From Paenibacillus humicola (GTDB lineage: Bacteria > Bacillota > Bacilli > Paenibacillales > Paenibacillaceae), in assembly GCF_028826105.1 (NCBI RefSeq), contig NZ_JAQGPL010000001.1:373501-437500 (forward strand): a stretch of 64,000 nt of DNA, given 5' to 3'. The notes under the pieces were generated by a model. It saw only the letters and a program-made list of their open reading frames with translations. It had not been told where the DNA came from and ran no database searches. Shown here one piece after another: positions 4,998-57,799 of the stretch (its first letter is position 1; every line of letters begins with the position of its first letter). Both the position numbers and the translations under genes were made by a program.

Positions 4998-5040
4998 GTT
5001 TTCCCCTCCCGCTTACAGATGCTGTACGAGCTCGTCAATC

Positions 5041-5160
5041 GGAAGACTCCGGCCGCTGTGCATGATGCTGGAATCGCGGAAGACTCCGGCAGCCATGCAT
5101 AATGCCGGCATCGCGGAAGACTCCGGCTGACGTACCATGATGCCGGCGTCGAGGAGGACT
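5041..5160. repeat. Tandem 37-bp repeat, about 3.2 copies
   Basis: GGAAGACTCCGGC recurs at 5041, 5078 and 5115, with a partial fourth copy (GGAGGACTC) at 5153. Units are 37, 37 and 38 bases and end in (A/G)TGC(T/C)GG(A/C)(A/G)TCG. The centre copies contain the palindrome ATGCCGGCAT and can pair GCCGG with CCGGC. The block fills the gap between the dedA stop and the PAP2 ribosome site. Confidence 0.8.
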
Positions 5161-5795
5161 CATTTGGGCCGAACGCGTTCGGCCGGTTCCGGCACGCCTG
5201 CGTTCCGGCGTCTGCCGCTGCGGCGAATTCCGTAAACGAGAAGCGCGGCGATGGCTGCGGCGATAAAAGCAGCCGCCAGTACGCGGTTTACGATGTGATG
5301 GTAATGCTCCCACTTAGGGCCGAGCAGCGAGCCGAGCGTAATGAAGACGCCGGTCCACACGAAAGCGCCGGTATAGGAAAACGCGGCATATCTGGCATAG
5401 GCCATGCGTGTGACGCCGGAGAAATATCCCGTAAAATGGCGGATCCCGGGGATATAGAAGGCGATGAGCAGCAGCAGGTTGCCGTACCGTTCGAACCAGC
5501 GCGACGTGCGGTCAAGCTTGTCCGGTCCGAGATGAAAACGCCGCCCGTGCCGCTCGAAGAACGGCCTGCCGAGCCGGAAGCCGATCCAATACGACAGCGT
5601 AATGCCGGCCGTAACGCCGCCTCCTGCCGACAGAATCGACAGCGGCAGGTTCATTTTGCCTTCGAACACGAGCAGACCGGCATAACTCATCAGCACTTCG
5701 CCGGGAAGCGGGAGCGCGAGCATCTCCAGCAGCAGGGCGGCAAACAGGACCCCGTACCCGTAATGAACAAGCCATGCGTTTAAGGTATGCAGCAA
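5160..5795 (-). CDS. DedA-family (SNARE-associated) membrane protein
   Basis: The 211-residue protein has several hydrophobic segments and the DedA signature around residues 110-130 (AFYIPGIRHFTGYFSG, the family's F-x-PG-x-R element), plus the early LPLPGEVLMSYAG loop. DedA proteins are proton-dependent flippases or transporters, several of which recycle undecaprenyl phosphate or move phospholipids. The C-terminal tail after about residue 190 is basic and lacks a membrane segment. It probably leads a transcript including the PAP2 gene. Exact substrate is not deducible. Confidence 0.88.
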   Translation of the reverse strand: MLHTLNAWLVHYGYGVLFAALLLEMLALPLPGEVLMSYAGLLVFEGKMNLPLSILSAGGGVTAGITLSYWIGFRLGRPFFERHGRRFHLGPDKLDRTSRWFERYGNLLLLIAFYIPGIRHFTGYFSGVTRMAYARYAAFSYTGAFVWTGVFITLGSLLGPKWEHYHHIVNRVLAAAFIAAAIAALLVYGIRRSGRRRNAGVPEPAERVRPK

Positions 5796-44122: not shown

Positions 44123-44779
44123 ATCTCTCACCCGTTTGTTCGTCTTTAGGTGGATTATAGCACAAGAAATGGAGAAAACAGTGACAGCCATTTCCAACTG
44201 AGCCCGGTTGCCGAAAAAAATTTCATTTTGTCGAAAGGGGTCTAAAAAACAGGGACGGACTAAAGATGCAAGCCGCCGAAATTGGATCGGGGCCGGCCCG
44301 CCGCAGAGTCATTCTGCGCCGGATCGGCCCCATTTTGTATCGGCGGCCGCACGGATGCGGCCTGCCGTATAGAAGCGTAACGCACGGTTTCAGTGCGATT
44401 CTCACATGCACGAAAACAACGAAAGCCCTAACCTCTCAATCGTCCTTGCGGTTCCTCGACCGCGCCAGTGTGAATCCGTGTTCCTTCCATTCGGGTCGTC
44501 GTTCAAAAGGAATGTGGTTAACGGACGGAGCAAATCCATAGGTACATCGCGGAAAAACCAGGGGTTACACTACATATAAAGCATTATTATACACGTTTGT
44601 CCGACAGAAAGCAAGCCGTATGACATTTGTCACCCCGCGGCCTTTTATTTGTCATGCGAAAGAGATGTTAATCGTGAATACAAGGGGCTTTTGAAATCCG
44701 GTACGATGGATTCATCGAACACAACCGGCGACGGCGCCGCGAATACACGATGAACGAATCGAAAAGGAGCTGCATGCAA
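44123..44779. other. Intergenic region between divergent kinase and ABC operon
   Basis: No gene is recognised. At 44289-44335 GGGGCCG...CGGCCCC with an inner GCAGA/TCTGC pair is followed by ATTTT, and may be a plus-strand terminator. Promoters of both flanking units should lie here, but no good -35/-10 pair was fixed. Confidence 0.5.
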
Positions 44780-51328: not shown

Positions 51329-52038
51329 GGCGCCCACTCCTTTTTGTACATCGTCCGGAACACGTTATGCAGGGAGCCGTACTCGGCCCGCAGCTCTTCG
51401 GTATCGCCCGCCCAGGCGGCTCGGCCCTTGTCAAGCATGACGGTGTAGTCGAACATGCCCTCGACCTCGTGAATATCGTGTGTGCTGATCAGCATCGATT
51501 GGTTCCGCGCTTCGATCAGGTCGATCATCCCGGCGACGATCGATTCCCGGGACATGATGTCGATGCCGGCAAACGGCTCATCCAGCAGGATGAGCGGCAC
51601 CTCGCGCGCCATGCACAGAATAAGCAGCACCCGCGCTTCCTCGCCGCGGCTCATGCCGCCGAATTTCATGTCCGGCTCGACTTCCATCAATTCGGCGAAC
51701 CGCAGCGCCGTCTTGAGGTCGAAGCCGGGCAGGAACGCCTGCCCCCATTCGAACGCCTTCATCGCCGTCTGGTTCGGATACCAGCGCGCGCGGTCGGGCA
51801 GGTAGGCGATACCGCCGTTTGCCTGCCAGCCGGGAGAGCGTCCCAAAACCTCGACCCGGCCGGAGTCCGGTTTCGTCAGCCCCGCAACGGTGCGGAACAG
51901 GCTCGATTTGCCGCAGCCGTTCGGACCGAGCACTCCGACGATCCGTCCGGCGGGAATCGCGACCGTGAGCGAATCGAGCGCGGTTTTTCGCCCGTAGCGT
52001 TTCGTCACCCGGTCGCACACGATGATCGGTTCGGTCAT
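51325..52038 (-). CDS. ABC transporter ATP-binding protein (YtrB-like)
   Basis: A 237-residue ATPase with Walker A GPNGCGKSS and Walker B LILLDEPFAGID. The signature reads MSRGEEAR in place of LSGGQ, as in YtrB-type ATPases. It is coupled by ATGA overlaps to both the regulator before it and the permease after it. Confidence 0.9.
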   Translation of the reverse strand: MTEPIIVCDRVTKRYGRKTALDSLTVAIPAGRIVGVLGPNGCGKSSLFRTVAGLTKPDSGRVEVLGRSPGWQANGGIAYLPDRARWYPNQTAMKAFEWGQAFLPGFDLKTALRFAELMEVEPDMKFGGMSRGEEARVLLILCMAREVPLILLDEPFAGIDIMSRESIVAGMIDLIEARNQSMLISTHDIHEVEGMFDYTVMLDKGRAAWAGDTEELRAEYGSLHNVFRTMYKKEWAP

Positions 52039-52442
52039 TTCGGCTCGCCTCCTTTCCGTCCTTCGCGCTTGCGGCGAACATAGCTTTCCACGTCGTCCCA
52101 GTTCAGGCCGAGACCGGCCATTTGCGATTCAAAGGCATCGATATATTTGGCGGCGAGCTCCGTCCGAAACGTGTGCACGCGCTCCGGAGAGGAAGTCACG
52201 TACGTGCCCTGTCCCCGGCGTTTCTCCGTCAGTCCGTCCCGTTCGAGCTCTTGATAAGCGCGCATGACCGTATTCGGGTTCATCCGCAGCTCTTGCGCAA
52301 GCTCGCGCACCGAAGGCATTTTGTCTCCCAATGCGATCTCTCCTTTCGCGATGGAACTTCGCACTTGATCGAGAATTTGCTCATACAGCGGCTGACTGAA
52401 ATCGATCCGGAAGCGCAGGCCGCTGACCCGCTGCTCATCCAT
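52035..52442 (-). CDS. YtrA-type GntR transcriptional repressor
   Basis: The 135-residue protein has a winged helix (SVRELAQELRMNPNTVMRAY) and only a short C-terminal helical part (about 75-135), as in the YtrA subgroup. It should repress its own operon until a cell-envelope antibiotic is sensed. A YtrA-like inverted repeat (GTGTATTA / TAATACAC) covers the operon promoter at 52747-52769. Ribosome site AGGAGGAACG. Between promoter and start lies a 277-base array of hairpin repeats. Confidence 0.92.
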   Translation of the reverse strand: MDEQRVSGLRFRIDFSQPLYEQILDQVRSSIAKGEIALGDKMPSVRELAQELRMNPNTVMRAYQELERDGLTEKRRGQGTYVTSSPERVHTFRTELAAKYIDAFESQMAGLGLNWDDVESYVRRKREGRKGGEPK

Positions 52443-52453
52443 AGGCGTTCCTC

Positions 52454-52730
52454 CTAAGCATTTTCCCTTAGAAATGCAGCATCGGCATTTCTATAGGAAA
52501 ATGCAGCATCGAAAGCATAAGCTAAGCATTTTCCCGTAGAAATGCAGCATCGGCATTTCTATAGGAAAATGCAGCATCGAAAGCATAAGCTAAGCATTTT
52601 CCCTGAGGAAATGCAGCATCGAAAGCATAAGCTAAGCATTTTCCCTGAGGAAATGCAGCATCGGCATTTCTATAGGAAAATGCAGCATCGAAAGCATAAG
52701 CTAAGCATTTTCGCTGAGATAATGCAGCCT
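52454..52730. repeat. Tandem hairpin-repeat array A, in the leader of the YtrA-type operon
   Basis: Five units begin CTAAGCATTTT at 52454, 52522, 52590, 52632 and 52701 (lengths 68, 68, 42, 69, last partial). The 42-base unit has a GCATTT...AAATGC hairpin followed by AGCATCGAAAGCATAAG. The longer units add an inverted copy (GCATTTCTATAGGAAAATGC), so the two arms of about 20 bases can pair at about 18 positions around a GCATCG loop. The array lies within the transcribed leader, ending four bases from the ribosome site. Same repeat family as 57676-57799. Confidence 0.9.
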
Positions 52731-52746
52731 GCTGTTGTTGACTTAA

Positions 52747-52778
52747 GTGTATTATATCACTTAATACACGTATTGCAA
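52747..52778 (-). promoter_or_regulatory. Promoter and YtrA-type operator of the GntR-ABC operon
   Basis: On the minus strand TTGCAA (52773-52778), 16-base spacer, TATAAT (52751-52756). GTGTATTA (52747-52754) and TAATACAC (52762-52769) form a perfect inverted repeat with a seven-base gap over the -10 and spacer, like known YtrA operators. Confidence 0.75.
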
Positions 52779-52879
52779 GCCCGATTTCAATTACGATTGA
52801 AAAATATGTAAACCGGATGCTATGATGATATTGGCCAAAATCGCTAGCTTGACAGAGCTGCTGTACCGGGAGTGTTCGT
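52779..52879. other. Divergent gap before the small membrane protein gene
   Basis: No gene. It should contain the promoter of the 52880 gene; TATGATGATATTGG near 52819 may hold its -10. Confidence 0.3.
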
Positions 52880-53203
52880 ATGGAGAAGAAGCTGGTTAAA
52901 ACGGCGGTGTACAGCTTTATTTTCGGACTTATGCTGGGGCTGCTTTACTACAAAAATATCAATAGCTTTTCAGCCGGGCTGGATACGGTTTCACAGGATG
53001 CGCCCCTGCAGCAGTATATCCTCCAGGTGCTGCGCTTTGCCGTCAAAATGACGTTCGCGACGGTAGCGTCGGTATGGATAATGGAAGCGGCACGCATTAC
53101 CGCGGTTGATTCGTACGAATATTTGCTCGGATTCTTGAAATCGTTTGCCGTCCTCTTTATGCTCGTATTGATCGGATTCGCTGTACTAACGGTTATTTTC
53201 TAG
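52880..53203 (+). CDS. Small conserved membrane protein, function unknown
   Basis: A 107-residue protein with three hydrophobic stretches (about 8-25, 50-68 and 82-107). It starts at ATG behind GGGAG. It lies 13 bases before the SLH-transglutaminase gene and probably shares its transcript. No family recognised. Confidence 0.72.
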   Translation: MEKKLVKTAVYSFIFGLMLGLLYYKNINSFSAGLDTVSQDAPLQQYILQVLRFAVKMTFATVASVWIMEAARITAVDSYEYLLGFLKSFAVLFMLVLIGFAVLTVIF

Positions 53204-57076: not shown

Positions 57077-57649
57077 CTAGCTTTGCAATGCGTGTAAAAG
57101 GTCTTCCGTGCTGCGCACCCGGCCGATTCTCGGGAAAATCGTCGACACCGTATAGCGGTGTTCGTCCTCGGTTTGCGCGCCCATGGCGTCTTCGGCGAAA
57201 ATCTGCCGGTACCCGTGCTGGAACGCTTCGCGGGCCGTCGTATCGACGCCGATGCTGGTCGAAATGCCGCACATCACGATCGTGTCAATGTCGCGCCGGC
57301 GCAGCTGGAGATCCAGCTCGGTGCCGTGGAAAGCGCCCCATTGGCGCTTGGTGATCCCGACGCTTTTCACGGCGTCGATTTCCGGCACGAGCCGCGCCCA
57401 GTCGGCGGGTCGGGCCCCCGTTTGCGGCGGGTTGTCCGTCAGCGGCTGCAGGACGTCGCGGCCGTCGACGAAATCGACGTTGACCGCGGCGACGAAGCCG
57501 CCTCTGGCGCGCAGCGCTTCGGCAAGCTGCACGGAGCGGCGGACAATATCCGCCGCCGGGTAAGGCACGGTCGGGTAATGATCGACGATACCTTTTTGCA
57601 GATCGATGATGATAAGAGCGGTAGCGGCAGGATTAATAATTAACGGCAT
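57077..57649 (-). CDS. Isochorismatase-family cysteine hydrolase
   Basis: The 190-residue protein has the catalytic triad D16 (IIIDLQKG), K101 (TKRQWGAFHGTEL) and C127 (IVMCGISTSIGVD, with the family's cis-peptide region). Relatives hydrolyse isochorismate, nicotinamide, N-carbamoyl compounds or unknown amides. The chosen ATG has GGAGG at proper spacing. The frame stays open upstream through the repeat array, adding 14-residue repeats; this is judged to be an untranslated leader because the internal start has a strong ribosome site. Confidence 0.9.
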   Translation of the reverse strand: MPLIINPAATALIIIDLQKGIVDHYPTVPYPAADIVRRSVQLAEALRARGGFVAAVNVDFVDGRDVLQPLTDNPPQTGARPADWARLVPEIDAVKSVGITKRQWGAFHGTELDLQLRRRDIDTIVMCGISTSIGVDTTAREAFQHGYRQIFAEDAMGAQTEDEHRYTVSTIFPRIGRVRSTEDLLHALQS

Positions 57650-57675
57650 CATAGGACCTCCAGAGTGTTTAATGG

Positions 57676-57799
57676 TTAAGCGTTTTACGGAGTAAAACGC
57701 AGCATCGAAAGCATAAGTTAAGCGTTTTACGGAGTAAAACGCAGCATCGAAAGCATAAGCTAAGCGTTTTACGGAGTAAAACGCAGCATCGAAAGCATC
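57676..57799. repeat. Tandem hairpin-repeat array B, in the leader of the isochorismatase-family gene
   Basis: Three 42-base units begin (T/C)TAAGCG at 57676, 57718 and 57760. Each has GCGTTTTA-CGGAG-TAAAACGC, a perfect eight-base-pair hairpin, followed by AGCATCGAAAGCATAAG, the same spacer as in array A. Relative to array A, GCATTT/AAATGC has become GCGTTTT/AAAACGC, a paired change that keeps the stem. The array fills most of the leader between promoter and ribosome site. Confidence 0.9.

Follow-up and report, generated by a model that had tools for sequence, protein, structure and literature searches.

The locus raises the question of why a run of hairpin repeats fills the leader of one regulatory gene of Paenibacillus humicola, and whether this run belongs to that gene or to something spread more widely in the genome. 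The array at 52454-52730 of the window (the whole analysed stretch of 64,000 nucleotides) lies on the minus strand, in the leader of a GntR-family (YtrA-type) regulator gene of 135 aa (52035-52442, minus strand; ORF and Pfam PF00392), and has eight unit-like matches on the gene strand according to repeat search, TRF and covariance-model scan. The original prediction, made from sequence alone, had described units of 42 or about 68 bases with 20-base elements, A(+) and A(-), linked by AGCATCG, and this proved accurate: the spacings in the repeat search were 68, 42 and 69, and it detected two inverted pairs with 20-nt arms, 90% complementary and separated by the 7-nt AGCATCG (52458-52504, an A(-)/A(+) pair nearest the Shine-Dalgarno (SD) sequence, and 52526-52572, both minus strand), and TRF returned periods of 68 and 42. 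Read on the gene strand, the array alternates TTAGCTTATGCTTTCGATGCT with hairpins of about 20 nt, the final one stopping 2 nt before the SD AGGAGG (52450-52455, minus strand, sequence reading). The array is confirmed as real and non-random. It contains seven exact copies of AAATGCAGCATCG, which, with up to two mismatches, has 13 matches in the window (seven in this array, three in a second array and three elsewhere) against 2.7 expected and at most seven in any of 100 shuffles; the fold of the leader is 4.6 sd below dinucleotide shuffles, none of 100 being as stable. The predicted coordinates hold for this array; they take in neither the other array of the window (57675-57798) nor the connection with the SD.

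The minus strand carries a promoter-like TTGCAA-16-TATAAT (52751-52778, promoter scan) whose end, at 52751, lies immediately upstream of the array. The array thus takes up the probable 5' leader, from promoter to ribosome site, as had been proposed. The promoter match alone is weak, because two such sites were found in the 501-base stretch around the leader compared to 1.2 in shuffles. It is overlapped by an inverted repeat, AGTGTA-13-TACAC (52746-52769, sequence reading), which we take to be a YtrA operator motif. The position between promoter-like site and SD, together with the very stable fold, would suit a regulatory leader specific for the YtrA operon, either a riboswitch or an attenuator, responding to cell-wall antibiotics. 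Against this, the scan of 52400-52900 yielded no terminator-like site (a stem followed by a U-run), which speaks against an intrinsic terminator or attenuator in this interval, and the last hairpin is followed by UUAGGAGG, not by a U-run. Rfam gave no match to the array at the gathering threshold, and nothing better than sub-threshold matches at the five arrays of the same genome that were tested (L079, L083, L087, L091 and L100). Elsewhere in the window, the only match above the gathering score was to the BsrC sRNA (44406-44493, plus strand, 73.5 bits). The YtrA locus is not comparable across relatives, since no YtrA orthologues were detected in 21 same-genus relatives at E<=1e-30. A YtrA-specific leader is made extremely improbable by the 26 further arrays of this genome, which precede other genes, many of them inside operons, leaving no tie to YtrA or to the antibiotic response.

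These arrays emerged from a covariance model of 36 positions built from 18 units of the P. humicola genome, which produced at least 98 matches at E<=1 in the 5.9-Mb genome, where 150 of the 6719 first-look candidates were scored, and bore out the suggestion of a dispersed family of multicopy, extragenic and palindromic hairpin units. Three hits in 16S-23S spacers (L080, L081, L098) and two weak hits (L102, L103) were set aside, and 27 mRNA-side arrays were kept, containing about 106 array-strand units (our selection from 190 listed matches at E<=10 in a filters-off scan of 25 loci). Besides the GntR/YtrA-gene array, the window holds one more of the 27, three units of 42 bp (L101; 57675-57798, minus strand, TRF and covariance-model scan) in the leader of an isochorismatase-family gene (57080-57652, minus strand, Pfam PF00857; extent as scanned, stop codon excluded). 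On the gene strand, a family unit combines a spacer, typically TTAGCTTATGCTTWCGAWGCT, with a hairpin of 8-9 bp; the usual arrangement is one hairpin per about 36-42 nt, and the alternating A(+)/A(-) pattern is peculiar to the GntR/YtrA-gene array. The mean hairpin energy changed from -12.0 kcal/mol in the SD-proximal unit to -10.5 kcal/mol in the fourth, a drift too weak to be used as an age polarity along the arrays. A separate tandem repeat with a 37-bp unit at 5040-5161 of the window appeared by eye unrelated to the hairpin family.

Palindromic, extragenic and multicopy repeats, with inverted pairs in the GntR/YtrA-gene array, are reminiscent of REP/BIME-type elements moved by a RAYT (Y1) transposase, the family to which the array had tentatively been assigned. 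However, the units are direct on one strand in all 27 arrays and inverted doublets are not predominant (inverted pairs were measured in the GntR/YtrA-gene array, the others being judged by eye). Furthermore, a search for the Y1 transposase domain (PF01797, the sole mover sought) found no match in the P. humicola genome and a match in one of 22 genus genomes, yet five of 14 control genomes were positive in the same search. The REP/BIME assignment is, therefore, very unlikely.

Each of the 27 arrays runs up to the start of a reading frame with the same direction, and the orientation relative to this frame is identical throughout. The genes behind them are functionally unrelated: Pfam scans identified pheT, ffh, rimP, resB, ThiF/MoeB, TerC, YlaH, UDP-GlcNAc 2-epimerase, ABC permeases, cytochrome c, YflT, a subtilase and others, with no Pfam match for the genes downstream of L077 and L088. 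By our own reading, the gene behind L086 is presumably a nucleotide-sugar dehydrogenase (ugd), and we take the gene behind L087 to be spoVM. At least 12 of the 27 arrays are preceded by the stop codon of a gene that runs in the same direction and matches a Pfam family (L075 after rho, L083 after pheS, L086 after manC, L093 after a resA-like gene, L095a after typA, L096 after moaE and L099 after upp, together with L076, L079, L085b, L089 and L097), and the leader is, consequently, not the feature that the arrays share. The predicted non-random placement thus stands, while its description as a leader trait gives way to a position directly upstream of the SD.

The SD begins within 7 nt of the last hairpin in 25 of the 27 arrays by script, and in 26 counting L092, where the model match ended early and the printed sequence has the hairpin abutting CTTTCAGGAGG; the lone exception in this genome is the isochorismatase array L101, with its SD about 20 nt from the last hairpin. 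The junction between array and SD reads ...TTA/GGAGG. Random window positions pass the same SD-spacing test at 4.7%, giving a P of about 2e-31 for 25 of 27, which excludes the random placement that the original prediction had named as its refutation. As a control, 185 SD-bearing gene starts in the fetched DNA were considered, 132 of them not labelled as family by the filter: a hairpin of at least 7 bp ending 0-6 nt before the SD was present in three of the 132, and all three turned out to be family members missed by the filter. The SD hairpin is thus a property of the element and not of SDs generally, and the generic explanation that genes in this DNA have an SD hairpin was ruled out.

Model matches at E<=0.01 were obtained in 18 of 21 same-genus relatives, in one of two further genomes of the same bacterial family (13 matches) and, as single matches, in four of 15 more distant genomes. 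A strict unit pattern run over contigs of 84,980 species matched only P. nasutitermitis and P. artemisiicola, the source record being possibly excluded from that search. Among the relatives, 22 of 28 loci passed the SD test by script, one of them (L053) spuriously, with a motif lacking a start codon behind it; L055, L056, L060 and L111 lay outside the fit, L059 runs into masked bases and L113 fits the SD spacing only with the next unit counted. The hits L053, L055, L056 and L060 are not SD-adjacent and resemble other repeats. Five further fetched hits outside the 28 were divided between those that look SD-adjacent (L066, L068) and those that do not (L063, L065, L067). In the relative G014, 26 of 33 clusters passed, one of them (L246) spuriously on a GGGG without a start codon; of the seven failing by script, three (L230, L235, L248) can be reconciled by eye if trailing bases or units are included, and L234, L240, L241 and L111 remain misfits. 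A dispersed element of another kind is present in genome G020 (43 model matches at E<=0.01): its loci L053 (around 1350-1900) and L119 have stretches of about 200-255 bp in common, including a unit-like hairpin that is not SD-adjacent. Genome G035 belongs to another bacterial family of the same order; in its locus L066 (from 1501), unit-like hairpins that stop ahead of an AGGAGG and a start codon were recognized by eye, and the repeat family may, therefore, extend outside Paenibacillus.

Comparison of the same junctions between related species indicates that array sites turn over, even in essential operons such as pheST. In P. humicola, 336 nt of units separate the pheS stop from the pheT SD, and none of the 21 same-genus relatives has units there, the junction being short in all 21. 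At ffh, units were seen by eye in five of 22 genomes, with differing hairpins, and at manC-ugd the unit number varies from 0 to 4 across species. The leader of a glycosyltransferase gene (GT4) has three units in P. humicola, four in G010 and two in G011, with no resemblance by eye between the latter two upstream of the array. In G014, which shares 97% identity over 200 aa of ffh and 88% in pheT with P. humicola, four of 26 P. humicola downstream proteins had a match among the 28 proteins behind its 33 clusters (P 1e-5 if 5000 genes are assumed; the comparison contained no protein for L087 of P. humicola or for five of the G014 clusters). This is above chance, so some sites are either retained or hot. 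In the ugd leaders, the hairpin loops are GTA in G010 and TAC in G011 (L126, L128), i.e., inverted versions of each other, possibly a trace of template switching at the palindrome.

Variable copy number and the closer resemblance, by eye, of units within one array than between arrays would also be expected if nothing had moved, the SD-linked hairpins having arisen locally and expanded only by slippage. Such an origin fails to explain why the spacer TATGCTTACGAAG or a close variant is common to arrays at unrelated genes and to the 23S spacer, and we consider it quite unlikely. The common spacer at unrelated sites, combined with the existence of filled and short versions of a junction, argues for mobility, while the fixed SD junction argues for either target recognition or strong selection on position.

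In the three readable 16S-23S spacers of P. humicola (L080, 1468-1503; L081, 1459-1494; L098, 1515-1550), a unit consisting of GCTTACGAAGC plus hairpin abuts GGTTAAG, the 5' end of 23S; it was absent from nine readable or partly readable spacers of seven relatives. It is conceivable, albeit rather doubtful, that the insertion machinery of a mobile palindrome recognizes functional RNA start signals, namely the SD of mRNAs and the mature 23S 5' end (often joined as ...TA/GG), in which case RNA, or the machinery of translation or rRNA maturation, might guide placement in place of an ordinary DNA target. If true, individual cistrons throughout the genome would carry hairpin caps, together forming a set that can evolve.

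The units diverge in sequence yet keep their pairing. In unit alignment A2 (150 rows, 123 of them distinct, from 172 matches, one row being the opposite strand of a counted unit), 97.7% of cells pair and 56 cells are double-changed, in five of the eight pairs, figures that lean towards structure because the alignment was fitted to the model; none of 500 shuffles reached its covariation score, and slid controls were far lower. Maintained pairing can also come from template-switch correction of palindromes. Predicted SD accessibility was higher with the real arrays than with shuffled ones (0.38 and 0.25, respectively; p 0.005, n=25, L101 and L092 dropped), while the gain over removal of the arrays (0.38 vs 0.31) was not significant (p 0.14).

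These properties could alternatively mean that the arrays are a selected RNA element: a 5'-proximal or intercistronic stem-loop beside a strong SD would protect the downstream cistron against 5'-3' degradation by RNase J1, or would define an end produced by endonuclease processing, and the length of the array would tune expression. Consistent with this are the placement of a hairpin immediately ahead of the SD in 26 of 27 arrays, the double compensatory changes, the ugd arrays in several species, the GT4 arrays present in three genomes despite the differing G010 and G011 flanks, and the four array genes common to P. humicola and G014; moreover, a review counts steric occlusion of the 5' end and a strong SD among the stabilizing determinants that leaders of long-lived mRNAs have in bacteria lacking RNase E (PMC3997798). 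On the other hand, the downstream genes have no common function, 22 of the 26 tested are not in common with G014, pheS-pheT is array-free in 21 of 21 relatives and the accessibility gain over array removal is insignificant. We regard selection for such an RNA function as possible, but not probable, as the main reason for the arrays.

The explanation that we favor, with somewhat more confidence than doubt, is that the family is a lineage-specific, mobile miniature palindromic element of Paenibacillus with SD-directed placement and tandem expansion, which leaves the SD usable and is possibly a 5' mRNA stabilizer. A unit would arrive directly 5' of an SD in one fixed orientation, often landing in the gap of a few bases that separates a cistron's stop codon from the following SD, and would then expand, by slippage or repeated insertion, into a tandem array whose transcript would be a row of hairpins running up to the SD. 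The site would be tolerated because each hairpin is self-contained and the SD and coding sequence are left intact. No target duplication was identified at the array sites. A modest influence on downstream mRNA stability, or on the uncoupling of two cistrons, is likely but would be secondary; that a stem-loop next to a strong SD resembles the Bacillus mRNA stabilizers makes a mild effect on the downstream cistron plausible by analogy.

Small dispersed repeats tend to be dismissed as clutter in the genome; the hairpin family has a sharply defined address. Since one junction exists in natural versions with and without an array, it becomes possible to test directly by what route such tiny palindromes spread when no transposase is evident, and whether hairpins between cistrons adjust the single genes of an operon. 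A survey of open-licence papers turned up no earlier description of the family, which is not a proof of absence.

Among the known systems, the aprE/ermC-type stabilizers are leaders of single genes and, to our knowledge, are not dispersed tandem repeats, unlike the Paenibacillus hairpin family. The likeness to these Bacillus 5' mRNA stabilizers consists in a stem-loop and a strong SD in the leader, as far as described in the available part of the review (PMC3997798). With REP/REPIN/BIME the family shares small extragenic palindromes in many copies and clusters; it differs from the features given in the accessible text of PMC3116915 by the lack of a RAYT/Y1 match, the single orientation and the SD-adjacent placement. 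Nearest in behavior, as compared by description, are the MIRUs, which the available sections of PMC12548453 present as short, apparently mobile repeats that settle at gene starts and hardly disturb expression, inserting at start codons and carrying an ORF coupled to the gene, and whose copy number is variable (PMC3635867). Oriented tandem repeats at intercistronic or start-proximal sites are MIRU-like, whereas the SD junction, the hairpin unit and the lack of a conserved coupled ORF are not: in three of the 27 arrays (L076, L088, L096), an ATG-started unit ORF has its end no more than 5 nt from the start codon, and a conserved coupled ORF was rejected, since frames and stops vary among the 27. 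The second analogue is represented by the TAACTGA heptamers of Maribeggiatoa, described in the accessible part of PMC4679880 as directional repeats just upstream of the start codons of functionally mixed genes. The Paenibacillus units are likewise directional and precede the starts of genes of mixed function, but TAACTGA is a 7-nt direct repeat mostly without an SD, in contrast to hairpin units of 36-42 nt standing directly before one.
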